Positions 1,606 to 15,023 of a stretch of DNA of 16,209 nucleotides are shown here, piece by piece. The DNA is from Limnoraphis robusta CS-951 (lineage in GTDB: Bacteria; Cyanobacteriota; Cyanobacteriia; Cyanobacteriales; Microcoleaceae). The translations under genes were made by a program, and so were the position numbers. The notes beneath the pieces are model-generated. The model was given only the letters and a program-made list of their open reading frames with translations. It was not told the DNA's origin and did not search any database. Where the stretch lies: contig NZ_LATL02000346.1 of the NCBI RefSeq assembly GCF_000972705.2, positions 1-16,209 of the forward strand. The letters are read 5' to 3'. The first letter of the stretch is position 1, and each line of letters opens with the position of its first letter.

Positions 1606-2667
1606 TCAGACAAACAAATGAATGTCAAAATATACAATCGCCAGATAAGCAACTAACCAAACCAGCAAGCTGATTTTAATGGCTTGATCTTGCAGCACAA
1701 TCTGATCGGGTTCTTCTCCAATTGCCAGAACTGTTACCATCCATTTATAGTGCATCACGGCATAATAAACAATCGGCACTGTGATCACCAGCGAGGGATT
1801 TTTATCAGATGCGATGGTAAATAAAGCATAGCACATAATGGTCATAGTCGCCGTGCTGTTGAGTAAAGAATCTAAAAAAGGCAGGGTATATTGTGCTAAT
1901 ACTGGACGTTGTTTATTGGCTTTGCCGCGTTGATAAAAAAGCTTGAGATAATGTCGATTAATCAGGGGAGTTTGATGAGGTTCTAATTGTGGTTCTGAAT
2001 CCGATTGTAACTCAGAATTTAGGGTCTGATTGAGAAGGGATAAAAGTTCGGATCGGCGTTTGGCAAATCCTAAAAATAGAGTCAGAAAAAAGGTACAAAG
2101 GGTAATCCAAGCGGTGGGAATATCTCCTAACGCATAAATTCCCGCTAACAGTCGCAAAACAAAACCAAAGGCGATGCAGCTTACATCAAATAAAGGGACA
2201 TTTTTGAGATGGAGAGAATAGAAGATATTATTCACTGCATACAGCAACATACAGGTTAAAGTTGCTAATCCTAAATGGAAGGCACCTACTAAAGAAAATG
2301 TTGCTAAAAATAGCCCGATAAAAAGAGCGGTTTTAATGTTTATTTTCCCGCTAGCAATTGGACGAAATCGTTTTTTAGGATGGCGGCGATCGCATTCCAC
2401 ATCTTGAATATCATTAAAGATATAAACTGCCGAAGCCATTGCTGAAAATAGAATAACCGTTAAACTACTTAAAGCAATAGACTGGGGTTCTAATAATCGT
2501 TCCCCAAAAATAACACCCGCTAGACAGAAAAAGTTTTTCGTCCATTGATGGGGGCGCATTAATTTAATAATCTCTAGACTCCAACGACTCTCCACCGAAG
2601 AATCAAAATCTGAGATGTCGTTAGGGTTTGGGGATAAAGAGATTTTTTCTTGGTAAGTTTCTTTCAT
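1606..2667 (-). CDS. UbiA-family prenyltransferase, decaprenyl-phosphate phosphoribosyltransferase type
   Basis: Predicted membrane enzyme that transfers 5-phosphoribose from PRPP to a polyprenyl phosphate, by similarity to mycobacterial UbiA (Rv3806c). After a ~30-residue soluble N-terminus come RPHQWTKN (38-45) and the metal/diphosphate-binding acidic motif NDxxDxxxD (85-93), followed by RRHPKKRFRPIASG (94-107), which is typical of this subfamily rather than of quinone- or chlorophyll-type UbiA enzymes. Further family features are YSLHLKNVPLFD (150-161) and FAKRRSEL (201-208). About eight membrane helices are likely. A Q/E/S-rich stretch (about 212-230) lies in a cytosolic loop. The ATG has GAGGA 7 bases upstream. 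It follows the SMR-like gene by 62 bp with a possible promoter between. Neighbouring oxidoreductases, flippase-like and GT-C-like genes suggest lipid-linked pentose synthesis. The family call is strong; the exact acceptor lipid is inferred. Confidence 0.88.
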   Translation of the reverse strand: MKETYQEKISLSPNPNDISDFDSSVESRWSLEIIKLMRPHQWTKNFFCLAGVIFGERLLEPQSIALSSLTVILFSAMASAVYIFNDIQDVECDRRHPKKRFRPIASGKINIKTALFIGLFLATFSLVGAFHLGLATLTCMLLYAVNNIFYSLHLKNVPLFDVSCIAFGFVLRLLAGIYALGDIPTAWITLCTFFLTLFLGFAKRRSELLSLLNQTLNSELQSDSEPQLEPHQTPLINRHYLKLFYQRGKANKQRPVLAQYTLPFLDSLLNSTATMTIMCYALFTIASDKNPSLVITVPIVYYAVMHYKWMVTVLAIGEEPDQIVLQDQAIKISLLVWLVAYLAIVYFDIHLFV

Positions 2668-2688
2668 AATTTAGTCCTCACGCACACC

Positions 2689-2717
2689 ACTATAATTCCG
2701 TTAAGGGACAATCAAAA
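2689..2717 (-). promoter_or_regulatory. possible promoter for the ubiA-type gene
   Basis: On the minus strand a -10-like TATAGT (2694-2689) lies 17 bases after a weak -35-like TTTTGA (2717-2712); TTGATT with 15-base spacing is an alternative. It falls in the 62-bp gap before the ubiA-type gene, upstream of its ribosome-binding site. The match is modest, and transcription may simply read through from upstream. Confidence 0.28.
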
Positions 2718-2729
2718 TCCCGGCATTTC

Positions 2730-3080
2730 TTAACGTGACATGATTATAATCCCTGCGAGGATCATTCCTAAGCCTATCCATTGATTAATCTCCAGTTGTT
2801 CCCCGAAGAACCAACCCCCCCCTAAAGCAATTAAGCTAAACCCAATTGCAGCAAAAACGGGATAGGCGACGGAAACAGGTAATTTTTCTAAGGCTTTAGC
2901 AAATAAAATCACGTTAATTCCATAAACACACAATCCAGCCAAAAACCAGGGAGAAAGCAGTAAACCGATCAAACTGGGATCTGTTGCAACTAAACGGGAT
3001 TTTTTTAAGAGTAAACTACCGATAGAGTTGTTAATCGCGGCGATTAAAACAAAACCCCAACCACTGATATTTAAGTTCAT
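2730..3080 (-). CDS. small four-helix SMR/EamA-type membrane protein, ArnE-like
   Basis: 116 residues, almost entirely hydrophobic, with four predicted membrane helices (about 5-25, 40-60, 70-90, 97-115). The pattern includes a basic LLKKSR after helix 1, AYPVFAAIGF in helix 3, GEQLEINQWIG between helices 3 and 4, and a last helix ending in IIIMSR. This is the layout of small multidrug resistance proteins and of the ArnE/ArnF subunits that flip undecaprenyl-phosphate-aminoarabinose. The glutamate of helix 1 that SMR drug pumps use for proton coupling is not visible (helix 1 reads GWGFVLIAAINNSIG), which argues against a drug pump. It lies 19 bp after the GT-C-like gene and 62 bp before the ubiA-type gene, with GAGG 7 bases before its ATG. 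A role in flipping a lipid-linked sugar is an inference from this context. Confidence 0.75.
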   Translation of the reverse strand: MNLNISGWGFVLIAAINNSIGSLLLKKSRLVATDPSLIGLLLSPWFLAGLCVYGINVILFAKALEKLPVSVAYPVFAAIGFSLIALGGGWFFGEQLEINQWIGLGMILAGIIIMSR

Positions 3081-3099
3081 CTGATTGCCTCGTTTTTCA

Positions 3100-4725
3100 T
3101 TAAGTTAGCACTCTTTTTAATTTTTGGTTTGTGTAGTAAAATATTCGATGTAAACGAATGGTATCCTTGATTTTTATCGTATAAGAACGGTAAGTCTCAA
3201 AGTCTATACTGGAGAGTTCAAATCCATCGGTTTCTAGTTTCTTTTCTAACAGTGCTGGAACGTTGATAAAATAACTATCAGGGTTGAGGATTGTCACCCG
3301 ATATTCATGGGAAGTGATACTGCTTACTTCTACTTCATCGGTTGGATTTAAGATATTTTGGAATGATGCAATGATCAACCAATCTACTTTTACGAAAGGA
3401 CAAAATAGTTGAATAGCCGGATAGAAACCATTTCGATAAATATAGGCACTTTTAAAATTATCAGGTAAGTTCATAATAAAGATTCCCTGGTTTTCTTTTA
3501 AAGATTTTAGACTTTCAATCGTTTGTTGAGAGACTTGACTAGCAATTTTCCAGTTTTGGTTAGAAAGGTAAGTCAGATTGAGAGATAAAATGGAAAAACA
3601 AGTGATCAGTATCATTAAAATAAGCGGACGTTGAATTAACAAAAACCCTATTACTACAGCTATTAAAATCGACAAAATAGCAGAAGAAAAGTATAAAAAT
3701 CGTTCAGATTGTGTATCTTGCATCGAGACACCAATATTAATAAAAGGAAGTAGAGACAATAAAAATAAACTCAATAAAAAAAGAGTGAAGCTGGCGATAT
3801 TTTTCTCTAAAAAACCTTGTTTGTAGGATTTTTTAATAAATAGTATGATTGCCGTCAGGAAAAAAATAAATAAAATTTGCCAGAGTAGTGGACGAGAGAG
3901 AGGGAGGGGAGGAATAATCACTCTTAAACTAGAATAAAATCCCTGAAAAATGACAAACCTGTTAAAATCAAGATGAACATCGCCACCATATCCACCTAAT
4001 AATTTACCAAGACCTAAGTATCTGAGAGGAAAATAAATTAGCCAAGCGGTACTATAGACAATGGGAAGATAGAAAACTTGGTAAACTGATTTGAGTTTAG
4101 TTTGAGAAGTGAAAAATTGGTAAAGTTCATAAAGAAAAATATAACCGGGAAAAATTAAAGCTGACTCTTTAGAAAACAGTCCTCCTAAAAACAGAAGGTA
4201 TGAAATGCTGAGATGAAAAAGTTTGTAAGATTGTTTATAGAGTAGATAAAAACAAAAAGCAGCTAAAACAAAAAAAGTAACAACGATATCGGCACGGGCT
4301 GAAATCCAAGAAACCGCCTCGACATGACTATGTAAGACTAAAAAAATGAAACCAGCAATTACAGAAATAAGTCTAATTTTTTTCTGAGGAAGCTGAGTTT
4401 TATTTAACAGTAAAATTGACAGAATATAGACGAGAAAAGAACAAACAGCATGAAAGATAACATTCGTTAAATGATAACCCAAGGGGTTTAAATGCCAAAT
4501 TACATAATCAATGAATAATGTAATCGAAATAATCGGTCTAAAAAAGATTTCGGGTGAAGTTGTCCAAACTCCAAAGATGCCGTTTTGCTGAATATTATAA
4601 ATTCGATCAAAGTCATCAGACAAGAAAAATGTATTCAACGTTTGACTGTAGATTAATACACTCAGAATGATGAAGCTAGTTAGGAGACTAAAATCGAAGG
4701 AATATTTTTTGAAAAATTTTAACAT
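3100..4725 (-). CDS. polytopic GT-C glycosyltransferase-like protein (PMT/ArnT/TMTC-like)
   Basis: 541 residues with about ten or more membrane helices and a soluble tail of about 130 residues. The first extracytoplasmic loop carries SDDFD (36-40), the place where GT-C enzymes keep their catalytic aspartate. It is followed by FRPIIS (62-67) and PLGYHLTNVIFH (81-92). Further on are HSHVEAVSWISARAD (132-146) and SKESAL (185-190). These blocks match the order seen in PMT_2/TMTC-type transferases, which use polyprenyl-phosphate sugars as donors on the outer side of the membrane. It starts 12 bp after the SDR gene and ends 19 bp before the ArnE-like gene, so the three are very likely co-transcribed. 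The Shine-Dalgarno is weak (TAAG close to the ATG). Gene and fold are well supported; donor and acceptor are unknown. Base composition is clearly more AT-rich than argG or thiO. Confidence 0.8.
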   Translation of the reverse strand: MLKFFKKYSFDFSLLTSFIILSVLIYSQTLNTFFLSDDFDRIYNIQQNGIFGVWTTSPEIFFRPIISITLFIDYVIWHLNPLGYHLTNVIFHAVCSFLVYILSILLLNKTQLPQKKIRLISVIAGFIFLVLHSHVEAVSWISARADIVVTFFVLAAFCFYLLYKQSYKLFHLSISYLLFLGGLFSKESALIFPGYIFLYELYQFFTSQTKLKSVYQVFYLPIVYSTAWLIYFPLRYLGLGKLLGGYGGDVHLDFNRFVIFQGFYSSLRVIIPPLPLSRPLLWQILFIFFLTAIILFIKKSYKQGFLEKNIASFTLFLLSLFLLSLLPFINIGVSMQDTQSERFLYFSSAILSILIAVVIGFLLIQRPLILMILITCFSILSLNLTYLSNQNWKIASQVSQQTIESLKSLKENQGIFIMNLPDNFKSAYIYRNGFYPAIQLFCPFVKVDWLIIASFQNILNPTDEVEVSSITSHEYRVTILNPDSYFINVPALLEKKLETDGFELSSIDFETYRSYTIKIKDTIRLHRIFYYTNQKLKRVLT

Positions 4726-4737
4726 CGCTTATGGTAT

Positions 4738-5763
4738 TTAAGAAAACTTTTTGAGAACCCAAAGTAGCTTTTCTTTAACAGGACGTCGATGAGCAGAACC
4801 TGCTTTTTCTGCCAGTAATTTATCATAATTTTTCTGAAACCAATCATAACTTTCCTGGAACATTTCATCATTAGAATATTTGGGTTTCCAGCCGAGTTGT
4901 AACAAAGGATTAACATCAAAATAAAACTCTTTATGATAGGTTAAGTAATGCCAAGGTGCAAGGGGACTCAAACCGACTAAATCTAAAAGTCTTAAGGTGT
5001 TAATGGTTAATCCTGTTGGTAGACTTTTAACTTGAGATTTAGTTCCCGCGTAACTAATTAAATGTTCTAAACCTTCTCGTAGGGTTCCAAAGCGATCGGT
5101 TCCGACATTATAAATTCCGGGTTTACCTAAATCAAGGGCTAATAAATAAGCATCCATTAAATCTAAGGCGTGAACAAATTGAAATTTAATATTACCATCG
5201 CCTATCACATACACATTTCGTCCTTCTTGAATCCACTCAAATAAAATCTGAAAAATGCCGAGTCTTCCTTCTCCTAAAATAGTCCGGGGACGAATGACAA
5301 TTAAAGGTAAATTTCCTTGTTCACAAACCTCTCGAACAGCAATTTCTCCTGCTAGTTTAGCTCGACCATAAATTTCCACCGCTTTAGTCGGGGTGTCGTT
5401 ATTAATTGGACATTTTGCATCCCCAAATAAAGCACTAGAACTCATGTGAATAAAGCTCTGAACGTCGGCTTTTACGGCTTCTTCTGCGGCGATTTTACTG
5501 CCTTCTACGTTCACTTCCCAAAACTTTTGACCGGATTTTGTTAGGGGAACTAACGCGACGTTATGATGAACAATATCAACCCCTTTCATCGCCGCAGCGA
5601 CACCTTGGCGATTACAGATATCACAGTCAATAAATTTGATATCTTTGGGGCGGGTTGGATCTTCCCAAATATCGAGGATGCTGACGTCTTCTCCCCGTTC
5701 ATATAAGCGTCGAGCAATTAAATTCCCTAAAAATCCTGAGCCGCCTGTAACGAGATGTTTCAT
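4738..5763 (-). CDS. NAD-dependent epimerase/dehydratase (extended SDR) 2
   Basis: Cytosolic extended short-chain dehydrogenase, 341 residues. The N-terminal Rossmann fold shows VTGGSGFLG (5-13). The active site is MSSS (107-110) with YGRAK (132-136), the YxxxK pair. It also has RPRTILG and a substrate-binding C-terminal half. Such enzymes act on nucleotide sugars or on hydroxysteroid-like substrates; the sequence does not decide which. The frame is open up to a TTG at 5799, but the ATG at 5761-5763 begins directly at the Rossmann strand (MKHLVTGG) and has GAGGAG upstream, so it is chosen. It lies 107 bp after the DUF218-like gene, with a possible promoter in the gap, and 12 bp before the GT-C-like gene. 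A DprE2-like role (reducing a 2-keto lipid-linked pentose) is possible from context only. Confidence 0.9.
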   Translation of the reverse strand: MKHLVTGGSGFLGNLIARRLYERGEDVSILDIWEDPTRPKDIKFIDCDICNRQGVAAAMKGVDIVHHNVALVPLTKSGQKFWEVNVEGSKIAAEEAVKADVQSFIHMSSSALFGDAKCPINNDTPTKAVEIYGRAKLAGEIAVREVCEQGNLPLIVIRPRTILGEGRLGIFQILFEWIQEGRNVYVIGDGNIKFQFVHALDLMDAYLLALDLGKPGIYNVGTDRFGTLREGLEHLISYAGTKSQVKSLPTGLTINTLRLLDLVGLSPLAPWHYLTYHKEFYFDVNPLLQLGWKPKYSNDEMFQESYDWFQKNYDKLLAEKAGSAHRRPVKEKLLWVLKKFS

Positions 5764-5801
5764 TGACTTTTGTTCACTCCTCACACCATTGATCTGCAAA
5801 A

Positions 5802-5830
5802 ACGATACATGAATCCTGTTAATTTGTAAA
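5802..5830 (-). promoter_or_regulatory. possible internal promoter before SDR 2
   Basis: On the minus strand TTTACA (5830-5825) and TATCGT (5807-5802) are 17 bases apart. The implied start near 5795 gives a ~32-base leader containing the GAGGAG ribosome-binding site of the ATG at 5763. This supports that ATG over the TTG at 5799. It would let the distal genes (SDR 2, GT-C-like, ArnE-like) be expressed separately from the GMC-led group. Confidence 0.38.
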
Positions 5831-5862
5831 GGATTTCAAAGGTCACTCACACAATGAACAGA

Positions 5863-5882
5863 AACTTGATTCATTTCAAGTT
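5863..5882 (-). terminator. stem-loop across the stop codon of the DUF218-like gene
   Basis: AACTTGA (5863-5869) and TCAAGTT (5876-5882) form a perfect 7-bp stem with a 6-base loop; the TGA stop of the gene (5871-5873) is in the loop. There is no long T-run after it on the minus strand, so at best it weakens or processes the transcript. It marks the only large gap (107 bp) within the upper part of the cluster. Confidence 0.28.
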
Positions 5883-6455
5883 ATTTTGATGTAATCTTAG
5901 ACGGTTCACTTTCCATACAAGCCATCGACTGAAATCATAACACAATGCGATGATCTCATAAATCGTTTGAACAACGGGATAGTTATAAAACCAGAGACGG
6001 GAAACCATTTTTCGCTGTACCTTTTGGGGGCGACATTTGATGACTTGTTTGACTTTAAATTCACACAATTCAAACATTGCTTTACTTCTTAAATGATGAG
6101 GAGCGTTGCAATATAAAATTACCTCTTCTAGTGGCCATAATTTTTCCTGTTCTAGCCATTTTCGCAGAAGTCTAGCGTTATCAAAGGTATCAAGATAGGG
6201 ACGATCACGAACTTTTATCGGGTATTTTACGTTAAGTTCTGGTCGCTTATTATGAATATATTGAGCTGCATATTCTTCCTCGGAAAATGCACAACCAAAA
6301 GCGTTTCCGGGTGAGATAAATACAGGTTCAGTTGACGGAACATCTTGAATAATTCGCTGAAGAACCGCTTCAAAATAATCCGATAAAAAATGGGTTTTTT
6401 CTGGTGTATTATCCTCGGAAACTAAGCCTTCTGTTATCACAATATGAGCAGTCAT
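5871..6455 (-). CDS. DUF218/YdcF-like protein (divergent)
   Basis: 194-residue protein of unknown role. Two blocks resemble the DUF218 (YdcF/SanA/ElyC) fold: DTFDNARLL (89-97), where the family has a T-x-E-N-A motif, and NAPHHLRSKAMF (117-128), like the family's H-x-x-R-A block after a hydrophobic strand (EVILYC). The usual glutamate of the first motif is D here. The N-terminus has no signal peptide. The C-terminal third has aromatic, basic and hydrophobic stretches (about 150-185) that could sit on the membrane. Its ATG overlaps the TAA of SDR 1 by one base (TAATG), with GGAGG upstream, so translation is likely coupled. In Escherichia coli, ElyC affects undecaprenyl-phosphate-dependent envelope synthesis, which would fit a lipid-linked sugar locus; this is an analogy, not evidence of function. 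Confidence 0.7.
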   Translation of the reverse strand: MTAHIVITEGLVSEDNTPEKTHFLSDYFEAVLQRIIQDVPSTEPVFISPGNAFGCAFSEEEYAAQYIHNKRPELNVKYPIKVRDRPYLDTFDNARLLRKWLEQEKLWPLEEVILYCNAPHHLRSKAMFELCEFKVKQVIKCRPQKVQRKMVSRLWFYNYPVVQTIYEIIALCYDFSRWLVWKVNRLRLHQNNLK

Positions 6456-7522
6456 TATCCATCTATTCCTCCATAATTTTCAAACACCCATTTTAAACTG
6501 CGTCGCATTCCTTCTTCTAAGGAAATTTTAGGATCATAGTCGAGTTCTCGTCTGGCTTTTGCAATGGAACAAGCGATGGTTTTATTCATCTCAGATAAAA
6601 CGTGTATTTTCTGCTGATAGAGTCCTAAAGATTGGATAAAACTATCAACACCCAGAGCAATTTCACTGGCAATTCCTGGAAGTTTTAACCGCTTATGTTT
6701 GCACGTTTGATTAAATTCAGACTCTAACAATTTTTCAACCGTATTGATAATTTCATTCATCGTGTAAGGACGTTCATCGGCGATCCAGTAGGTTTCTCCG
6801 TTGGCTTTTTCGGTGATAGCTGCTAATAGTAAACCCTGACACAAGTTATCAACGTAAGCCATTGATCGCAGGTTATTTCCATCTCCAACAATCGGCCCTT
6901 TTCCCTCTCGAATCATCTGAAAAAATAGTGTTTGTCTGGGCGGTTGGTTAGGGCCATAAAACCAGGGTGGACGAACAACAACCGTTTCTATTTTTCCCGC
7001 TTTATAATATTCTTTTATGGCTAATTCCATTAACATTTTAGAACGCCCATAGTTCATATAAGGGTTGTAGGGCGATTTTTCATCAAATAAATGATCGGGA
7101 TGAGGGTTACAACCACAGGGCGAATTAGAGGAAACAATAACGGCTCGTTTGACACCTGCTTTTATGGCAGAATTCAGTAAATTTTTGGTTCCTTCTACAT
7201 TAATTTGATAAAATTCTGGGATTTTTTGGGGGTGAATAATTCCTGCGGTGTGAAATAAGATAGCATTGTTTGCACCTTCACAAAAGCGATCACAATCTTG
7301 AGGATTTTGTAAATCTCCTGTTATTACTTCGATTTTTTCTGAAATTTTTTGCAAAATTGTTGCATCTTGATTGGGTAATATTAAACAGCGAATTTTTAGA
7401 TTTTCTGCGGGTTGAGTTAAGGATTCACAATCTGTTAATCCTTGGGCTAGGGCTTTAACTAAACTGGTTCCCAACCAACCTAACGCTCCGGTTACTAACA
7501 CTAAATGAGTTGATAATTCCAT
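6455..7522 (-). CDS. NAD-dependent epimerase/dehydratase (extended SDR) 1
   Basis: 355-residue extended SDR, cytosolic. Cofactor-binding TGALGWLG is at 11-18, the serine block IVSSNS at 129-134, and the catalytic YGRSK at 158-162. RPPWFYGPNQPP and GDGNNLRSMAYVDN follow, typical of sugar-nucleotide epimerase/dehydratase and 3-beta-hydroxysteroid dehydrogenase-like enzymes. The frame extends upstream to 7615, but that would overlap the GMC gene by 85 bp and add 31 residues unlike the family. The ATG at 7520-7522, 8 bp after the GMC stop, starts next to the Rossmann strand and is preferred. Only a weak AGGA lies upstream, so it may depend on coupling with the GMC gene. The pairing with an FAD oxidoreductase suggests successive oxidation and reduction of one substrate (inference). 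Confidence 0.92.
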   Translation of the reverse strand: MELSTHLVLVTGALGWLGTSLVKALAQGLTDCESLTQPAENLKIRCLILPNQDATILQKISEKIEVITGDLQNPQDCDRFCEGANNAILFHTAGIIHPQKIPEFYQINVEGTKNLLNSAIKAGVKRAVIVSSNSPCGCNPHPDHLFDEKSPYNPYMNYGRSKMLMELAIKEYYKAGKIETVVVRPPWFYGPNQPPRQTLFFQMIREGKGPIVGDGNNLRSMAYVDNLCQGLLLAAITEKANGETYWIADERPYTMNEIINTVEKLLESEFNQTCKHKRLKLPGIASEIALGVDSFIQSLGLYQQKIHVLSEMNKTIACSIAKARRELDYDPKISLEEGMRRSLKWVFENYGGIDG

Positions 7523-7530
7523 GATTGCTT

Positions 7531-9015
7531 TTAAAGTTTTCCTAAAAATTTTAGAGCATTTCGACGTGCGATCGCCATAATTGAACCTTGAGGATTTACA
7601 CCGGGGGCGGTGCAAAGTAGACTCGCATCAGAAATATATAAGTTATTAAAACCATGCACTTTTCCGAAAGAATTTGCTGCACATTTTTCTAGATTTTCTC
7701 CCATTGGGCAGGATGACATGACATGAACAGTCATTAAATTAGTTTGAGATTTGGGTAAGATTTCAGGAATTTGTTTGAGATCATCAGGCTGAGTTAATCG
7801 AGGGAAATTTGAAATACTAGGATACAATATTTTGGCTCCCGCTTCAAACAAAAGTTGAGATAATTTTTGCAGTCCTTCTGATAAATCTTTCAAATCCTGT
7901 TGAGTCAGGCGATAGCGAACCAGTGGATCACGAAATCCGGGAATATTGCGAACAGAACCTCTTCCTGAACCTGTTATCATGGCGTAATAAATTGCCATTT
8001 GTTGCCAATTTTGCTCTACTTCCTGTCTATATTGCGGGTGATCTGTCATCCCCACAGCGAGATAAGGAGGCGAACTAATGGAACAGCCAAAACTCAATTT
8101 AGGCGCAAATTCTTTGACTTGATGAACCGGAACTCCCATGTCTTTTGAATTAACAATTTCATTAAATTGAGCAATCACTTTAACAGTCGGGTGCATTTGT
8201 AGATTATTCCCAATATTATGGGTGATTCCACTGCGTCTTAATAAATCAGGAGTTTGAATGGCTCCACAACAAATAAATAGAGTTTCTGCTTGAATTTCTA
8301 CAGCTTCTTTTTGTTGATCATTCAGAAAATAATCTCCTTTCAATAGCCAGTATTTTCCTTGCTGACGAATCAGGTTAATTCGAGTATTCGTTAACAGTTG
8401 ACAACCTGCATTTAACGCTCTAGGAATGAAGGTTTCAGTCATTGACTGTCTGGTTCCTTTTGGCGTTGCAGAAAGATCAGTTTGTTCTTGATACCGAAAC
8501 CAGCGAGGAATTTCTAAAGATTGCCAACCCAAACTGATAGCACCCTGATGAAGTTTAAGAGAAGCCAGGGGCGGTTTTCCGGGCAATTTACAGACGGTAA
8601 CAGCTTGTTCACAGGCTTCAAAATGAGGGATTAAATCGGCTTCTGTGAGGGCTTCAACTGCAAATTCTCTTTGCCATTCTTCTAATATTTCCGGTGGTGT
8701 TCGGTGATAAAGTCCGCTATTAATTTCGCTTCCACCTCCCACACATCGCCCTTCTACATATTGAATTTTAGGCTTGCCAAAAGCTGCGGTTAAACCCCCA
8801 TTTCGGTACTTTTGTTCGAGTTCTGTTTGGGAAAAAGGCGGACAAGATTTCAAGGGTAAATAGGAACCTTCTTCTATTAATAAAACATCTCGCCCTGCTT
8901 CCGCTAATAAACAAGCAGTAATTGCCCCTCCTGGCCCTGAACCGATGACTGCAATTTCACAAGTTAGAGGGGATTTTGGATGAATTATTCTGTTGTTTGG
9001 TGTGGATTTAGACAT
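7531..9015 (-). CDS. GMC-family FAD-dependent oxidoreductase
   Basis: 494-residue flavoprotein that should oxidise an alcohol group. The FAD-binding Rossmann motif GSGPGG is at 25-30, followed by LLIEEG (45-50). The family block FGKPKIQYVEGRCVGGGSEINSG follows, and the C-terminal signature runs from SSCPMG to GVNPQGS. H431 (in VHVMSSCPMG) and N474 (in GVNP) are 43 residues apart, the spacing of the catalytic His/His pair of glucose oxidase; the His/Asn combination is as in cholesterol oxidase. There is no signal peptide or twin-arginine motif, so it acts in the cytosol or at the inner membrane face. It follows a small membrane protein by 22 bp and precedes SDR 1 by 8 bp. The substrate is not known: a lipid-linked sugar, a sterol or hopanoid-like lipid, or a long-chain alcohol are options. 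Confidence 0.93.
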   Translation of the reverse strand: MSKSTPNNRIIHPKSPLTCEIAVIGSGPGGAITACLLAEAGRDVLLIEEGSYLPLKSCPPFSQTELEQKYRNGGLTAAFGKPKIQYVEGRCVGGGSEINSGLYHRTPPEILEEWQREFAVEALTEADLIPHFEACEQAVTVCKLPGKPPLASLKLHQGAISLGWQSLEIPRWFRYQEQTDLSATPKGTRQSMTETFIPRALNAGCQLLTNTRINLIRQQGKYWLLKGDYFLNDQQKEAVEIQAETLFICCGAIQTPDLLRRSGITHNIGNNLQMHPTVKVIAQFNEIVNSKDMGVPVHQVKEFAPKLSFGCSISSPPYLAVGMTDHPQYRQEVEQNWQQMAIYYAMITGSGRGSVRNIPGFRDPLVRYRLTQQDLKDLSEGLQKLSQLLFEAGAKILYPSISNFPRLTQPDDLKQIPEILPKSQTNLMTVHVMSSCPMGENLEKCAANSFGKVHGFNNLYISDASLLCTAPGVNPQGSIMAIARRNALKFLGKL

Positions 9016-9037
9016 TGATTTATTTTTTCCTTATTCT

Positions 9038-9469
9038 CTACTCTAGAGTATTAATTTGATAGGATTGCCAGCATAATACAACCAAGCTTTCATAAAAACG
9101 CATTAAATCTCTACAAATGCTAAGGCGTGCATTTTTCCAAGCTGAAATTTGTTGTAAACGTAAGGTGTGAGGTTGACGATGAAAGGGAGAACCCATGATA
9201 ATAATACCCCAAAAGTTAAAAAAAAGTGTTAGAAATATAATAGGAAATCGCAGATAGTCAGGCATTCGACTATGTTGTTGCAAAACAAAGCGAACCACAT
9301 CATTATGGGGAAAATTCAGGGGAGAGAGACTTGATTGACAACAGTGTTGGATGATAGAGTAACACAGTGCAGAAGCCGTATTTGTGAAAAGCTGATTGAT
9401 CATTATTTCAATAACAAGCAAATTTTTGAGGATTTGGTGTTGTTCGAGTCTTGACAGTTCAACAGGCAT
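9038..9469 (-). CDS. small protein with one membrane segment, probable GMC partner
   Basis: 143 residues, not recognised with certainty. One hydrophobic segment (about 75-93, rich in I, L, F) is followed by SPFHRQP, ISAWKNARLSICRDLMRFYESL and a short tail. I recall a block of the type FHRLP...W..S.L...RD..RF..SL in small proteins encoded next to GMC oxidoreductases, so a membrane-anchoring or electron-transfer partner is a reasonable guess. The spacing to the GMC gene is 22 bp. The start is uncertain: ATG at 9469 has no Shine-Dalgarno and lies within the predicted promoter region; the next ATG is residue 23 (9403). The N-terminal 22 residues may therefore be untranslated. Confidence 0.65.
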   Translation of the reverse strand: MPVELSRLEQHQILKNLLVIEIMINQLFTNTASALCYSIIQHCCQSSLSPLNFPHNDVVRFVLQQHSRMPDYLRFPIIFLTLFFNFWGIIIMGSPFHRQPHTLRLQQISAWKNARLSICRDLMRFYESLVVLCWQSYQINTLE

Positions 9470-9513: not shown

Positions 9514-11355
9514 ATGAAGTTGCTAGAAACTCAGCTTGAAAAAGAAAAAAATCCTTCTATTTTTTACGGATTTCTCTGGTTTTTATATTTATTGCCGATT
9601 TTGGCTACTTTTGGCTTTATTAAAATATTGGGAGTCGATGTACCCATTTGGGCTGATCAATGGGCTTTAGTTGATTTATTTGAGGCGATCGCAGAGGTTA
9701 ATTTACCCTCCGTGTTTGGCGAACTTTGGGAGTTAAATAATAATCATCGCATGATTTTTCCCAAGCTAATCTTTGCTGCAACAGCTTTTTTATCAAACTG
9801 GAATATTATCTATGAGTTGTACTGGAGTTTTGCTTTAGCTACGCTTTCATTTTTTATTTTATACAAGCTTGCAGAATTAACAACTCAAACCACAAGTATA
9901 TTTTTATTTCATACCATTAATTTGATCACCTGTTTGTTAATGTTCTCTTGGGTTCAATATACGAACTGGTTATGGGGATTTCAAATCGCTCTATATTTAA
10001 TCAATTTCTGCGTTATTCTCGCTAGTTTTATTTTAGCTTATCCGCCTTTAAACCCCCAGACTAAGCTAAAGCTTGCTGGAATTCTTTGTATAATTGCTAG
10101 TTTTTCTTCAGCACAAGGTTTAGTTTCATGGTTAGCATTAATTCCCTCTATTCTAACAGTATCAGCAACTTCTCCAGGTCAAAGAATTAAACGATTTATT
10201 TTCTGGTTGATGTTGTTTTGTGTTTCCAGTTTTGCTTATTCAATTCAATATAGTTCAGTACCGATCACTGAATATTATGAAACCGTCAATTATGATTCAA
10301 TTTGGCATAAATTAAGAGTTTACATTCACTTTTTTTTAAATGTTGTAGCCGCACCTTTAACGGAAAATTCAGCAGTTTCTGTGATTTTTGGATTGATTAT
10401 CATCTCCTGTTTTATATTTCTTATCTTGCGTTTTTGGGTACAACGTCCATCTATTTTAAATCCTTTTAGAGTCGTTTTTTTCTCCGAGTCCGCTCCTTGG
10501 TTATCTATCGGTTTATTTTCTATTTTGTGCAGTATATTGATGACAATTGGCCGAGCAGATTTAGGTGCAGACTATGGGTTAACAACGTCGAGATATACAA
10601 CCCATTCGATTTTATTACTCATTGCTATTCTGCATTTATTCAATTTACATTTATCTTTAAAAGAACAAAACTCAACTTCACCGACTTTGCTTAATAAAAT
10701 TTTAGCTTTTAGCTTTTCATTGGGGCTGATTACCAGTTTTATTTGGATGCGTTCATCTCAAAGTTTAACCACAGCAAAAACCCAATTTTATCAACCGAGT
10801 AACATTTCTCATACCTGCTTATATTTAATTAATTATCTAGACTTGGAAAACTCACAATTCTTTGAAAACTCTCCCGCAAACTGTTTTGTTTCAATGGTTC
10901 CGACAACAGTTGGACTCTCACAACAAGTTGAACGTCTCAAAAAAATTAACTTCAGAAACTTTGCAGAAGATATTCCCTTTGTTGAAGAACCTAGTCAACT
11001 TCATGGTTTTATTAGTTCTCCTTGGACAACAGAAAAAACTCTGACTATACCGATAGGTGGAAGCGTTAGAATAGATGGCTGGGCTGTTCTCCCTAATCAA
11101 CCTAAACAACCTCAACTTGTCTTTCTATCAACAAACGATAATCAATCTTTTTTTGCTAATGCTTATATTAACTTAGGCAGTCCAGATGTCGTTCAATTTC
11201 TCAACTCTGAAACCTACAAAAATTCTCGATGGGATCTCACATTTTCTAGCGAAAATTTAACATCGGGAGACAATATCATTAAAGCTTGGGTTTACGATCC
11301 CAAAGACAGACAATTTGTAAAATTAGCTGGAGAAATACAGATTTATATTCAGTAG
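9514..11355 (+). CDS. large membrane protein, GT-C-like, paralogue 1
   Basis: 613 residues; about ten membrane helices up to about residue 410, then a soluble, probably extracytoplasmic region. The first loop has ADQW (47-50) and NNNHRMIFPK (75-84). Later blocks are WVQYTNWLWGFQ, IASFSSAQGL and SRYTTHS after GRADLGADYG. An acidic residue in the first outer loop followed by a basic His-Arg block is what many GT-C glycosyltransferases show, so a role in moving a lipid-linked sugar is suspected but not shown. Residues 517-613 form a beta-rich module with DGWAVLP, SPDVVQFL and IKAWVYD, a type appended to several bacterial membrane glycosyltransferases as I recall. It shares all these blocks with the gene at 11976-13769. 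No clear ribosome-binding site; the ATG follows the predicted promoter at 9451-9479. Confidence 0.85.
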   Translation: MKLLETQLEKEKNPSIFYGFLWFLYLLPILATFGFIKILGVDVPIWADQWALVDLFEAIAEVNLPSVFGELWELNNNHRMIFPKLIFAATAFLSNWNIIYELYWSFALATLSFFILYKLAELTTQTTSIFLFHTINLITCLLMFSWVQYTNWLWGFQIALYLINFCVILASFILAYPPLNPQTKLKLAGILCIIASFSSAQGLVSWLALIPSILTVSATSPGQRIKRFIFWLMLFCVSSFAYSIQYSSVPITEYYETVNYDSIWHKLRVYIHFFLNVVAAPLTENSAVSVIFGLIIISCFIFLILRFWVQRPSILNPFRVVFFSESAPWLSIGLFSILCSILMTIGRADLGADYGLTTSRYTTHSILLLIAILHLFNLHLSLKEQNSTSPTLLNKILAFSFSLGLITSFIWMRSSQSLTTAKTQFYQPSNISHTCLYLINYLDLENSQFFENSPANCFVSMVPTTVGLSQQVERLKKINFRNFAEDIPFVEEPSQLHGFISSPWTTEKTLTIPIGGSVRIDGWAVLPNQPKQPQLVFLSTNDNQSFFANAYINLGSPDVVQFLNSETYKNSRWDLTFSSENLTSGDNIIKAWVYDPKDRQFVKLAGEIQIYIQ

Positions 11356-11392: not shown

Positions 11393-11851
11393 TTATCGGC
11401 TAAAATTAATCGAAAAAATCTGATTTTTTACTGTTCCAGCAACAAAAATTGAATAAATCAATGATTTATCTGAACTATATTGAATGTTGGCTACTCCACT
11501 CGCATCTGAGATATCTGACTCTGTTAGATTAACTCTAATACCGTAGGGATCTCTGCGGATCAATTGACCTTTAAAACGGGCTAATTGTTGATCATTATTC
11601 CGAAAAATAAGTTCTGTTTCTCCATTTTCATTGACTTTAACAGAAACAGAGGTTATTGTGCCGCGAAAACGATTGTTTAAAGAATAGACACCCGTTCCTT
11701 CTTGAGATACACTTAATTCGGCTGTATTGTCGAGATTTTGTACAATGCTGAAATCACTTTTATAAGTGGGTTTGGCGATCGCTAAATTCTCCTCAACGAC
11801 TATCCAACTTCCACAGGCTATAATCATCATTAGTTGTATTAAACCTTTCAC
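11393..11851 (-). CDS. small secreted beta-rich protein of unknown function
   Basis: 152 residues starting with GTG. An N-terminal hydrophobic stretch (about 3-19) and AIA-K near residues 24-27 look like a signal peptide with a plausible cleavage site. The mature part is rich in V, T, S, N and alternates polar and hydrophobic residues, as in a beta-sandwich or barrel. No cysteines are seen after the leader, and no family is recognised. AAGGAG lies 7 bases before the GTG, one of the best ribosome-binding sites here, so the gene is probably real. It lies on the opposite strand between the two large paralogues, ending 37 bp after the first one's stop (convergent). Location should be periplasm or cell surface. 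Confidence 0.75.
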   Translation of the reverse strand: MKGLIQLMMIIACGSWIVVEENLAIAKPTYKSDFSIVQNLDNTAELSVSQEGTGVYSLNNRFRGTITSVSVKVNENGETELIFRNNDQQLARFKGQLIRRDPYGIRVNLTESDISDASGVANIQYSSDKSLIYSIFVAGTVKNQIFSINFSR

Positions 11852-11864: not shown

Positions 11865-11975
11865 TTGTTGATTAATCCCCAGTCTTGACTCAATTCTATT
11901 ATCTCTCAACTTGAGAAAAACAGTATCTAGATTTGCGTCTTTTATCCTGACTCTGTTCACCCATTGTTCCTGGCG

Positions 11976-13769
11976 ATGACTCAAAAAAAGCCCGCTATCT
12001 TCTCGCGTCGTTCCTTAACTTTATTGAGTTTATATCTTATTCCTATTTTGGGAGTTTGTGGATTTGTCAGCTTCTTTAGTGTCAATGTCCCCCGATTCGA
12101 TCAATGGATACTTCCCTATTGGTTTGAGAAATTTTCCACAGGTGATCTCACCCTAAAAAATTTATTCGCTCAACACAACAGTCATCGCCTATTTTTCCCT
12201 AAACTGATTTTTATTTGCTTATCTTTTTCTTCCAACTGGAATATTACATGGGAACTTTATTTTAACATAATTTTAGCAATATCAACCTTTTTAGCATTGT
12301 ATTTTTTGACTAAAAAAACTGCTCAATCTACTCAAAATAGCCTCCATTTAGCGAATTTATCAAGCAGCATTTTACTCTTTTCTTGGGTTCAACATGAAAA
12401 CTGGCTGTGGGGATTTCAAATTGCGATTTTTTTAATTAATCTTTGTGTGATTCTCTCCTGTCTAGTCTTATCAACTCAATCCTTTCAACCTCAAACCCGA
12501 TTAACAATTGCAGCTTTTTTATGCGGTATTGCTAGCTTTTCATCAGCCCAAGGACTCTTATCTTGGTTAGGAATGATTCCGACTGTTTGGACGGTAGAAG
12601 GAAGCTACAAACAGAAAAAACAGAGATTGTTAGTTTGGATCTTTCTATTTATCTTTTCTAGTCTCATCTACTCCATTAACTATCGACAAGAAACCGATAC
12701 TGTTCCGACTGTCTCTGACAATAAACTTTTCGCAACCATTCACTTCTTTCTCAATCTCATTGCTGTCCCTTTTCTCGATTCCTATGACTGGAATTGGTTA
12801 CTAGGAGGAATCATAATATTAATTTTTTTAAGCTTAATATATTCGGCTATTATCTCTGACCATAAACTGGATTTAAACCCAAACTTATCCCCTTGGATTT
12901 CTATCAGTTTATTTTCCTTATTGTGTAGTCTTTTAATCGCTGTCGGTCGCTCGGGGTTAGGGGCTGATTATGCCATTTTAGCCTCTCGATATACAACTCA
13001 TACGATTTTACTTCCCATTGCTATTATTCAACTCAGTCAACGAATATTTTTAAATAATTCAAATCACTCTATAATTATTTCCCGGGATAATAAATTTTTT
13101 ATATTTGGATTTTTAACAGGAATATTGATCGGTTTAAATTTAGTTTCATCCGCTAATTATGCTTTTTATGTTCAATCTCGTTTACCCTTGATCCAAGGCG
13201 GAAAAACTTGTTTTCATCTGATTAACTATTTAGAACAATCAGCTTTTTTGAAAACGAATCCTCAAAGTTGCTTACTTCATCTCCATTCAGCCTCTTGGGT
13301 ACAAGTCATCTGGGATTCTGCGGAACACTTGAAACGCTTAAAATTTAGAGAATTCGCTCAAAATGTCGCTTTCATTTCTTATCCCAAACAAAATTATGGT
13401 GAAATGACCTCTCCTTTAGATTCCGATCAAATTTTAAGTTCATCAACAGCAAAATCTGTTAAACTAGAAGGATGGATTCAGCAATCGCCAACTTCTAAAC
13501 CTTCTAATCTTATTCTATTTTCCCTCGCCCAAAAGCAATCTTTTTTCGCAAACGCCTACGCCCTAGAATCAACTTCCCAACCCTTAAACTCAAACCCATC
13601 TTCATCTGAACACCGCCTCAAATGGGAAGTCGAACTATCAGCCGATGTTCTCCCCTTTGGAAATAGCATTATTCACGCCTGGATCTATGATCCGATAGAC
13701 AATCAATTCCTAAAACTCAAAAATAAAGTCAGTATAACCCGATTAGATTTTACACCTTCAGAGCAATAG
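11976..13769 (+). CDS. large membrane protein, GT-C-like, paralogue 2
   Basis: 597 residues, clearly related to the product of 9514-11355 over the full length. Shared blocks: FDQW (41-44) versus ADQW, HNSHRLFFPKLIF versus NNHRMIFPKLIF, SNWNI, WVQHENWLWGFQIA, IASFSSAQGLLSWL, GRSGLGADYA, SRYTTHT, and C-terminal GWIQQ, QSFFANAY and IHAWIYDP. About ten membrane helices precede a soluble tail; the beta-rich module is about 494-590. It lacks the SPDV block that paralogue 1 has in this module. A TTG at 11964 is in frame, but the ATG at 11976 is preferred; neither has a clear ribosome-binding site. The same sugar-transfer hypothesis applies. No membership of a named family can be asserted from sequence alone. 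Confidence 0.85.
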   Translation: MTQKKPAIFSRRSLTLLSLYLIPILGVCGFVSFFSVNVPRFDQWILPYWFEKFSTGDLTLKNLFAQHNSHRLFFPKLIFICLSFSSNWNITWELYFNIILAISTFLALYFLTKKTAQSTQNSLHLANLSSSILLFSWVQHENWLWGFQIAIFLINLCVILSCLVLSTQSFQPQTRLTIAAFLCGIASFSSAQGLLSWLGMIPTVWTVEGSYKQKKQRLLVWIFLFIFSSLIYSINYRQETDTVPTVSDNKLFATIHFFLNLIAVPFLDSYDWNWLLGGIIILIFLSLIYSAIISDHKLDLNPNLSPWISISLFSLLCSLLIAVGRSGLGADYAILASRYTTHTILLPIAIIQLSQRIFLNNSNHSIIISRDNKFFIFGFLTGILIGLNLVSSANYAFYVQSRLPLIQGGKTCFHLINYLEQSAFLKTNPQSCLLHLHSASWVQVIWDSAEHLKRLKFREFAQNVAFISYPKQNYGEMTSPLDSDQILSSSTAKSVKLEGWIQQSPTSKPSNLILFSLAQKQSFFANAYALESTSQPLNSNPSSSEHRLKWEVELSADVLPFGNSIIHAWIYDPIDNQFLKLKNKVSITRLDFTPSEQ

Positions 13770-13913: not shown

Positions 13914-15023
13914 ATGAATGCTTCTGATGACATCATTATTATTGGCGGTGGATTAATCGGGTTGTCCCTAGCAGTCGAACTCAAACTGCGAGGCGCCCAT
14001 GTCACAGTCCTCAGTCGCAACTTCCAGGAAGCAGCAGGTCATGTCGCCGCAGGAATGTTAGCACCCCAAGCCGAAGTCATTCCACCAGGGCCAATGTTAG
14101 AGTTAGGCTTACGCAGTCGCGCCTTGTACCGGGAGTGGATAAGCAAACTTGAAGAAATCACAGGTCTAGATACAGGTTACTGGCGCTGTGGAATTCTCGC
14201 TCCCGTTTACGAAATTCCCGATCACACAGAACTCTATCAACCTCCTAATTCTCCGGCAATTTGGCTCGATCAACAAGCCATTCACAAACATCAACCCGGT
14301 TTAGGCGTAGAAGTCGTGGGCGGTTGGTGGTTTCCCCAAGATGCTCAAGTCGATAACCGTCGTTATTTAGTCAAAGCCTTACAAACCGCTAGCCAACAGT
14401 TAGGCGTTCAAATCCTCGAAGGGGTAGAAGTTGAAGCGATCGCCCGCAACTCAAAAACCGTAGAAGCCCTTCAAACCAATCAGGGCGCCATCACAGGTTC
14501 ACACTACATCTTAACAGCCGGATCCTGGTCAGGACAACTGCTTCCGCAAGTTCCCGTTTATCCGCGAAAAGGACAAATGCTGTCGCTGAAAGTCCCAGAA
14601 TCTTTCGAGTCGCTTCCCCTCAAACAAGTCTTATTTGGAACCGAAATTTACATCGTTCCTCGTCGAGATGGTTTAATCGTGATTGGCGCAACCCTCGAAG
14701 ATGTCGGTTTTAGCGTCGGTTTAACCCCAGACGGTGTTCAAACGCTACTGGCGGGCGCTATCCGTATCTACCCCGTTTTACGTGATTTTCCCATACAAGA
14801 ATTTTGGTGGGGCTTTCGACCAACCACTCCAGATTTACTCCCCATTTTAGGAACCAGCCCTTTTGACAACTTAACCCTCGCAGTTGGTCATTACCGCAAC
14901 GGTATTTTACTCGCTCCCATTACCGCTAAACTTATTGCTGAGTCCGTCCTAGACCAAAAATCCGATCCTTTATTAGAATACTTTGCTTGGGAACGGTTTT
15001 CTCCCGCCCCACTTCAACGTTAA
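13914..15023 (+). CDS. thiO: glycine oxidase (thiamine thiazole synthesis)
   Basis: FAD enzyme, 369 residues, that oxidises glycine to iminoglycine, the precursor of the thiazole ring of thiamine. The N-terminus carries GGGLIG (11-16) of the DAO-type Rossmann fold; then AAGHVAAGMLAPQAE, a block typical of ThiO. The C-terminal part has WWGFRPTTPDLLPILG and GHYRNGILLAPITA, both characteristic. The length fits a stand-alone enzyme. In several cyanobacteria ThiO is fused to thiazole synthase ThiG; here the frame stops at 15021-15023 and no ThiG follows, so the fused form is absent at this locus. It probably has its own promoter and is not linked to the glycan-like genes. The ATG has no strong ribosome-binding site, but the Rossmann strand begins directly after it. 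Confidence 0.94.
   Translation: MNASDDIIIIGGGLIGLSLAVELKLRGAHVTVLSRNFQEAAGHVAAGMLAPQAEVIPPGPMLELGLRSRALYREWISKLEEITGLDTGYWRCGILAPVYEIPDHTELYQPPNSPAIWLDQQAIHKHQPGLGVEVVGGWWFPQDAQVDNRRYLVKALQTASQQLGVQILEGVEVEAIARNSKTVEALQTNQGAITGSHYILTAGSWSGQLLPQVPVYPRKGQMLSLKVPESFESLPLKQVLFGTEIYIVPRRDGLIVIGATLEDVGFSVGLTPDGVQTLLAGAIRIYPVLRDFPIQEFWWGFRPTTPDLLPILGTSPFDNLTLAVGHYRNGILLAPITAKLIAESVLDQKSDPLLEYFAWERFSPAPLQR

Follow-up and report, generated by a model that had tools for sequence, protein, structure and literature searches.

In the mycobacterial arabinan route the UbiA-family enzyme DPPRS is followed by DprE1 and DprE2, together with a small membrane protein and GT-C glycosyltransferases (Aft/Emb), and the DprE1/DprE2 step is the target of antitubercular drugs. 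The three-component systems of Citrobacter youngae O1 and O2 (Kelly et al. 2024, PMC11127046) combine a UbiA enzyme using phosphoribosyl pyrophosphate (PRPP) with a candidate flippase and a GT-C enzyme, epimerases being optional. The Citrobacter enzyme carries a fused HAD-type phosphatase domain, and these Gram-negative systems have a MATE flippase and either a single GalE-like short-chain dehydrogenase/reductase (SDR), for xylofuranose, or DprE1/DprE2, for arabinofuranose (PMC11127046); ‘cyanobact’ occurs 0 times in the main text of that paper. Here we describe a gene cassette in a stretch of 16,209 nucleotides from the cyanobacterium Limnoraphis robusta CS-951 (contig NZ_LATL02000346.1; the whole stretch is called the window). 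The cassette is real and conserved. It is best interpreted as a donor module for a lipid-linked pentose, and with a probability of about 0.62 it produces and uses a pentofuranose linked to polyprenyl phosphate, the epimerisation module having been replaced. On this reading its first step is that of the mycobacterial and Citrobacter systems, and its epimerisation step departs from theirs.

With the Citrobacter systems the cassette shares the PRPP-type UbiA, the candidate flippase, the GT-C enzyme and possible epimerases, but it has an SMR-type protein, a GMC-family flavoenzyme with a small partner (p143) and two SDRs, and no recognised phosphatase lies in the window. The mycobacterial UbiA is homologous at its active site and both routes have a small membrane protein and a GT-C enzyme, whereas a non-homologous GMC enzyme and extended SDRs stand in the places of DprE1 and DprE2, and the GT-C enzyme resembles Aft/Emb in fold only, by predicted model. 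The cyanobacterial ebo cluster likewise holds a UbiA protein, EboC, within a conserved cluster; it differs in that a Lyngbya relative (genome G001) has a separate EboC gene (388 bits), distinct from its cassette UbiA, and the window UbiA fails the EboC model NF035940 with 33.1 bits against a cut-off of 250.

Eight closely spaced, co-directional genes occupy the minus strand from 9469 down to 1606, in the transcription order p143, GMC, SDR2, DUF218, SDR1, GT-C, SMR and UbiA, with argG next; a first-pass annotation of the window had named most of these genes as one cluster, and they are present as claimed. With the likely starts, the successive gaps are 22, 8, -1, 107, 12, 19 and 62 bases, and purine runs resembling Shine-Dalgarno sequences, judged by eye, precede several of the starts.

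9038..9403 from the likely start (listed open reading frame 9469-9038), minus strand: p143, small conserved helical partner of the GMC enzyme
7531..9015, minus strand: GMC-family FAD oxidoreductase (PF00732 114.9 bits, PF05199 65.9 bits)
6455..7522 from the likely ATG at 7522 (listed frame to 7615), minus strand: SDR2, extended SDR/epimerase (PF01370 105.4 bits)
5871..6455, minus strand: DUF218-like protein, optional member (PF02698 22.5 bits, cut-off 27.6)
4738..5763 from the likely ATG at 5763 (listed frame to 5799), minus strand: SDR1, extended SDR/epimerase (PF01370 134.6 bits)
3100..4725, minus strand: GT-C fold membrane glycosyltransferase by predicted model, candidate user of the lipid-pentose
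2730..3080, minus strand: SMR-type small membrane protein, candidate flippase (PF00893 49.7 bits)
1606..2667, minus strand: predicted UbiA-family polyprenyl-phosphate phosphoribosyltransferase, PPPRS/DPPRS-like (PF01040 82.6 bits, NF008977 229 bits)

The UbiA enzyme and its conserved neighbourhood

Judged by profile score and contact residues, the window UbiA is a predicted polyprenyl-phosphate phosphoribosyltransferase, the type assigned to it in the first-pass annotation from the motifs NDIQDVECD and HPKKRFRPIASG, both of which are present. Its score with NF008977 (DPPRS) is 229 bits against a curated cut-off of 234, followed by 195.4 bits with NF008978 (cut-off 207), 161 bits with PRK08238 and 136.9 bits with NF008976 (cut-off 474); the best family beyond the DPPRS models and PRK08238 reaches 66 bits. 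Among control UbiA proteins, the DprE-associated one of locus L087 scored 229.8 bits, about the same as that of the window, and the one of L095 scored 255 bits with NF008978. The only strong relatives in the PDB are the DPPRS chains 8j8j (E 3.9e-32) and 8j8k. When compared with the PRPP and decaprenyl-phosphate contacts of Rv3806c, as given in PMC10994848, 10 of the 12 mapped residues are identical (R22, K28, Y70, N73, D77, K87, R90, Y138, K143 and K191), while Q135 is replaced by N and Y157 by F; K208 was unmapped and stands outside the 12. These contact letters are the same across related loci L001-L017, apart from L017, in which R replaces K87 and Y stands at the position of Y157.

A related UbiA was found in 26 loci, and in 17 of these (L001-L017, several of them short contigs) it is at least 45% identical to that of the window. 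By tblastn, SDR1 and SMR were each found in 13 of the 17, SDR2 in 12, GMC together with p143 in 11 and DUF218 in five, the last also in L078 and L088; at the level of whole genomes a close GMC enzyme (at least 53% identity) is present in 13 of 17, and none was found in the genomes of L006, L009, L012 and L016. The cassette spans four phyla: Cyanobacteriota, where its bearers are filamentous, Verrucomicrobiota (L014), Myxococcota (L017, titled Deltaproteobacteria) and Planctomycetota (L016, a fragment with SDR2-UbiA at the contig edge). In three instances the UbiA-SMR side and the GMC side lie on separate contigs of one genome (L010/L078, L008/L097 and L088/L135). Since the gene set recurs in other species and phyla, chance clustering is ruled out, and the neighbourhood, whose lack of conservation would have spoken against the first-pass annotation, is indeed conserved. 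We propose a core donor module of p143, GMC, SDR2, SDR1, UbiA and, usually, SMR.

The same association appeared in a search of 386 genomes from the phylum of the Lyngbya relative, in which the best few GMC candidates were scored for the larger genomes. UbiA was matched at E ≤1e-25 in 46 genomes and GMC at E ≤1e-60 in five; four of the five GMC proteins (76-87% identity) fall in exactly the four genomes with a close UbiA (68-86% identity), and the remaining one, a relative at 30% identity, comes from a genome with no UbiA match at E ≤1e-25. In two of the four (G001 and G176) GMC and UbiA lie on different contigs. Chance would pick the same four of 386 with a probability of about 1e-9 if genomes were independent, but the four are related and the true weight is less.

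By context, 11 of the 46 UbiA genomes have DprE1 and DprE2 homologues within about 5 kb of it, four are of the GMC type and 31 show neither; in the stretches read, DprE1/DprE2 and the GMC set occur together in 0 of 46. The 11 loci (L085, L086, L087, L089, L096, L116, L117, L118, L124, L126 and L127) appear from their gene content to be canonical donor systems of the arabinofuranose type. Like the window they have a PRPP-type UbiA, about 30-46% identical to that of the window depending on the stretch aligned, but in the stretches read they lack a GMC enzyme of the window's kind, p143 and a pair of extended SDRs. At L095:6950-11883, in one of the 31 genomes with neither set, a UbiA, a HAD-like protein, an SMR protein, a 440-residue protein of no assigned family and a GT87 enzyme stand in a row, which looks like a putative ribose-only three-component system. 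Since GMC-type, DprE1/DprE2-type and L095-type loci are all present, one donor logic seems to occur in the phylum in three or more arrangements. In L126 the UbiA forms part of an open frame of about 650 residues near the DprE1/DprE2 homologues, possibly fused to a further domain, and UbiA-SMR pairs about 1-2 kb apart were seen in L084, L090-L093, L120, L121 and L123.

The flavoenzyme, its partner p143 and the two SDRs

The flavoenzyme belongs to the GMC family, with GMC_oxred_N and GMC_oxred_C both above cut-off, an FAD motif and a His/Asn pair. GSGPGG, the His of TVHVxSSCPMG and the Asn of GVNPQG, the latter two of which we take to be that pair, are conserved in 12 of 12 aligned rows. Both SDRs have PF01370 as their best family and are of the extended type. 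SDR1 keeps its TGGSG and YG[RK][AG]K-type motifs in 11 of 11 full-length rows, and SDR2 its TGxxGWLG and YG[RK]SK motifs in 10 of 10. These counts omit all rows no longer than 250 residues (L001, L006 and L014 for SDR1; L001, L003 and L007 for SDR2) and, for SDR2, the cross-match of L012. The best NCBIfam model for SDR1 is the hopanoid-associated HpnA, at 92 bits (cut-off 368), and 3Beta_HSD scores as well.

The first-pass annotation had likened these enzymes to DprE1 and DprE2, a comparison that fails at the family level. At E ≤0.01, the DprE1 model NF053785 gave no match to the window GMC protein, and the DprE2 model NF053786 was absent from the complete list of 23 NCBIfam families for SDR2 and from the best 25 of the 35 NCBIfam matches for SDR1. 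L087 served as a positive control: its DprE1 scored 415 bits with NF053785 (cut-off 500) and its DprE2 188 bits with NF053786; these scores fall short of the curated cut-offs but lie far above those of any window protein. The flavoenzyme was therefore rejected as DprE1, being of the GMC kind (PF00732/PF05199) and not of the FAD_binding_4/ALO kind, and both SDRs were rejected as DprE2, a classical SDR, being of the extended PF01370 type. Because these are not the DprE1/DprE2 families, wording specific to arabinose was premature.

A search of 15 cassette genomes with NF053785 found nothing over the cut-off of 500; the best match, 88.6 bits, covered the FAD domain only. Matches of this FAD-domain kind at L136 (genome of L013, 89 bits) and L137 (genome of L011, 81 bits) exceed those of the other cassette genomes. 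PF04030 was missing from 14 of the 15, although it is a weak sensor that gave only 19.3 bits for the DprE1-like protein of L019. We propose that the GMC enzyme is an analogue, not a homologue, of DprE1, and we infer the replacement of DprE1/DprE2 from position and chemistry, an alcohol-oxidising flavoenzyme being paired with ketone-reducing SDRs.

The small protein p143, unnoticed in the first-pass annotation as a part of the cassette, lies directly upstream of GMC in 14 of 15 GMC loci (the window, L001-L005, L007, L011, L013-L015, L017, L078, L135 and L097), L097 being the single exception in which it was undetected beside GMC. The pair stays together where other cassette genes lie elsewhere (L135), and it may serve as a marker for locating the cassette in other genomes. 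The predicted model of p143 is all-helical with five helices (predicted local distance difference test score, pLDDT, 91.0; alignment of 24 sequences, 18 of them from 47 search matches); the PDB gave no match at E ≤0.001, and no fold was recognised. The protein has a hydrophobic stretch, FPIIFLTLFFNFWGIIIMG, and the best 19-residue window averages at least 1.5 (Kyte-Doolittle) in 21 of the 24 aligned members. With such hydrophobic windows, it is a reasonable idea that p143 may dock the flavoenzyme at the membrane.

Membrane proteins, phosphatases and flanking genes

The 541-residue GT-C protein (3100..4725), TRANSFERASES, gave a confident predicted model of the GT-C fold that matches lipid-phosphate-sugar transferases including ArnT, AftA, AftB and AftD, in line with the GT-C-like transferase described from the sequence earlier. 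Its closest named relative is from Limnoraphis sp. WC205 (94%), and the listed homologues include TPR-bearing proteins and proteins named protein O-mannosyl-transferase by a source. In L015 a PMT_2-type GT-C protein sits between SDR2 and SDR1. The GT-C enzyme varies by species, as expected if acceptors differ. For the small membrane protein, the SMR half of its earlier ArnE/SMR-like description is borne out by PF00893, and its best NCBIfam model, ArnE, scores 38.7 bits, under the cut-off of 92.

Around the cassette the window holds the following further features.

259-1503: argG, housekeeping flank (TIGR00032, 571 bits)
9514..11355, plus strand: large membrane protein with 9 hydrophobic segments, candidate second transferase, GT-C-like by topology only
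11393-11851, minus strand: small protein with a hydrophobic N-terminus, no Pfam match
11964..13769, plus strand: paralogue of the 9514-11355 protein, 40% identical
13914-15023: thiO, housekeeping flank on the other side

The plus-strand proteins at 9514-11355 and 11964-13769 had also gone unnoticed; from their topology they are putatively GT-C-like. Homologues of the 9514-11355 family lie inside or beside the cassette in L001, L007, L011, L013 and L078, with long matches in four of the 17 loci (L001, L007, L011 and L013), and this cassette-linked family has no detectable homology to the cassette GT-C. The C-terminal end of the 11393-11851 protein was matched in L078, and thiO also adjoins the cassette in the Planktothrix-type loci L002-L005. 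A Pfam scan of ten window proteins found nothing for the GT-C protein, p143 or the 9514-11355 and 11964-13769 proteins.

The same ten proteins included no HAD or PAP2 match, in agreement with the remark of the first-pass annotation that no PAP2 phosphatase is visible. Its suggestion that the DUF218-like protein could remove the 5-phosphate is weakened, as that protein is found in only five of the 17 loci while a HAD protein (TIGR01490) comes after UbiA in L009 and after SDR2 in the cassette of L014. The HAD phosphatase of these two relatives is a better precedent for the 5-phosphatase than DUF218. The L009 protein has matches in three of 15 cassette genomes, one of them only 30-34% identical and off the cassette contig; a HAD match also occurs in five of the 11 DprE1/DprE2 loci. 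In L014 (4410-8801) the verrucomicrobial cassette is followed by the HAD phosphatase, a xylose-isomerase-like TIM barrel and an Acyl_transf_3/SGNH protein.

The proposed pathway and its alternatives

In the pathway we propose, the UbiA protein would act as a PRPP-using polyprenyl-phosphate phosphoribosyltransferase and start the lipid-linked pentose, after which a phosphatase, for which the window has no established gene, would take off the 5-phosphate. The GMC enzyme, perhaps held at the membrane by p143, would then turn one of the ring hydroxyls of the lipid-linked ribose into a ketone, whose reduction by SDR1, SDR2 or both would alter the configuration of the sugar; these steps are suggested by analogy with DprE1/DprE2, whose homologues neighbour UbiA elsewhere in the phylum. 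The SMR protein would flip the lipid-sugar outwards, and GT-C enzymes, whose fold is supported by the model, would pass the pentose to a surface glycan or protein. In co-encoding a predicted PPPRS, a candidate flippase and a modelled GT-C enzyme, the cassette has the make-up of a putative three-component pentofuranose system; the 5-phosphatase that such a system has in its locus was not seen among the ten window proteins scanned. Thus the pathway of the first-pass annotation stands in its UbiA type, SMR protein, GT-C fold and neighbourhood, and is set aside in its DprE1/DprE2 and arabinose parts, with the role of DUF218 weakened.

Several observations weigh against this pathway. The NF008977 score of the UbiA falls narrowly below its cut-off, the substrates of GMC and the SDRs are deduced from gene position only, and no published assay of any cassette member was found. 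Because the L009 HAD protein is matched in just three of 15 cassette genomes, the second step is left without a general candidate, and DUF218, although in the cluster, plays no role in the favoured account. The window GT-C is recognised in two of the 17 loci, once partly (the TPR protein of L016 has a further stretch matching it at 26%), SMR is missing from four of the 17, and the L009 genome keeps UbiA and SMR with no GMC seen. The four genomes in which GMC and UbiA co-occur are related and are not four independent events, and the Oscillatoria genomes G004 and G017 have a partial NF053785 match of 81-89 bits.

The sugar itself is a further matter. A strict version of the first-pass reading, in which the product is polyprenyl-phosphoryl-D-arabinofuranose, GMC oxidises C2 and one SDR reduces the resulting 2-keto group, is conceivable but doubtful: 11 of the 46 genomes have DprE1/DprE2 homologues at about 5 kb or less from UbiA, and GMC with an SDR could be their non-homologous replacement in the same reaction, but the cassette has no DprE1/DprE2 match and two SDRs instead of one, and no evidence singles out C2 as the carbon that is oxidised.

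GMC, p143 and the SDRs could also belong to another pathway, such as alcohol, sterol or hopanoid oxidation, and be mere neighbours of UbiA-SMR. Both enzyme families act on many alcohols, the HpnA and 3Beta_HSD scores of SDR1 point the same way, and the UbiA-SMR and p143-GMC blocks lie on separate contigs in the three genomes named above; this explanation is nevertheless unlikely, as the linkage recurs in several phyla and presence is matched among the 386 genomes even where the blocks are unlinked.

A single extended SDR might instead epimerise C3 to give xylofuranose, like ORF13 of Citrobacter youngae O2, with GMC, p143 and the other SDR making a further change or acting elsewhere. ORF13 is a GalE-like SDR with TGXXGXXG and YXXXK motifs (PMC11127046), and both window SDRs are PF01370 proteins with these motifs; since GMC with p143 is about as frequent as the SDRs (11 against 12-13 of 17 loci) and would go unexplained, we regard the xylofuranose route as rather improbable. 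As a long shot, GMC with p143 might form a novel type of membrane-docked lipid-sugar oxidase, with the two different SDRs inverting two centres of polyprenyl-phosphoryl-ribofuranose to give a lyxofuranose donor, or with oxidation of the C5 primary alcohol leading to a C4-inverted pentose.

It is hardly credible that the UbiA is one of the common prenyltransferases for quinones, heme, chlorophyll or carotenoids: it does belong to the UbiA superfamily PF01040, and a quick tree places one outgroup paralogue, EboC, with a very long branch at the base of the cassette group, but the Lyngbya relative has separate heme, EboC and 4-hydroxybenzoate UbiA genes, each scoring with its own family, and the window UbiA, with its DPPRS scores and retained PRPP contacts, reaches at most 37 bits with the listed heme, EboC, quinone and chlorophyll models. 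The grouping with quinone or carotenoid prenyltransferases that would have spoken against the first-pass annotation is therefore not seen in the family scores, the tree being weak here.

If the proposed pentofuranose pathway is correct, redox epimerisation of a lipid-linked pentose would have arisen two or more times, and Planktothrix, Arthrospira, Lyngbya and Oscillatoria would have a donor pathway of which we found no description. Interest centres on which sugar the cassette makes; this sugar could be a new one, as could the chemistry, and the cassette would provide a short gene list for a surface sugar of bloom-forming and cultivated cyanobacteria.

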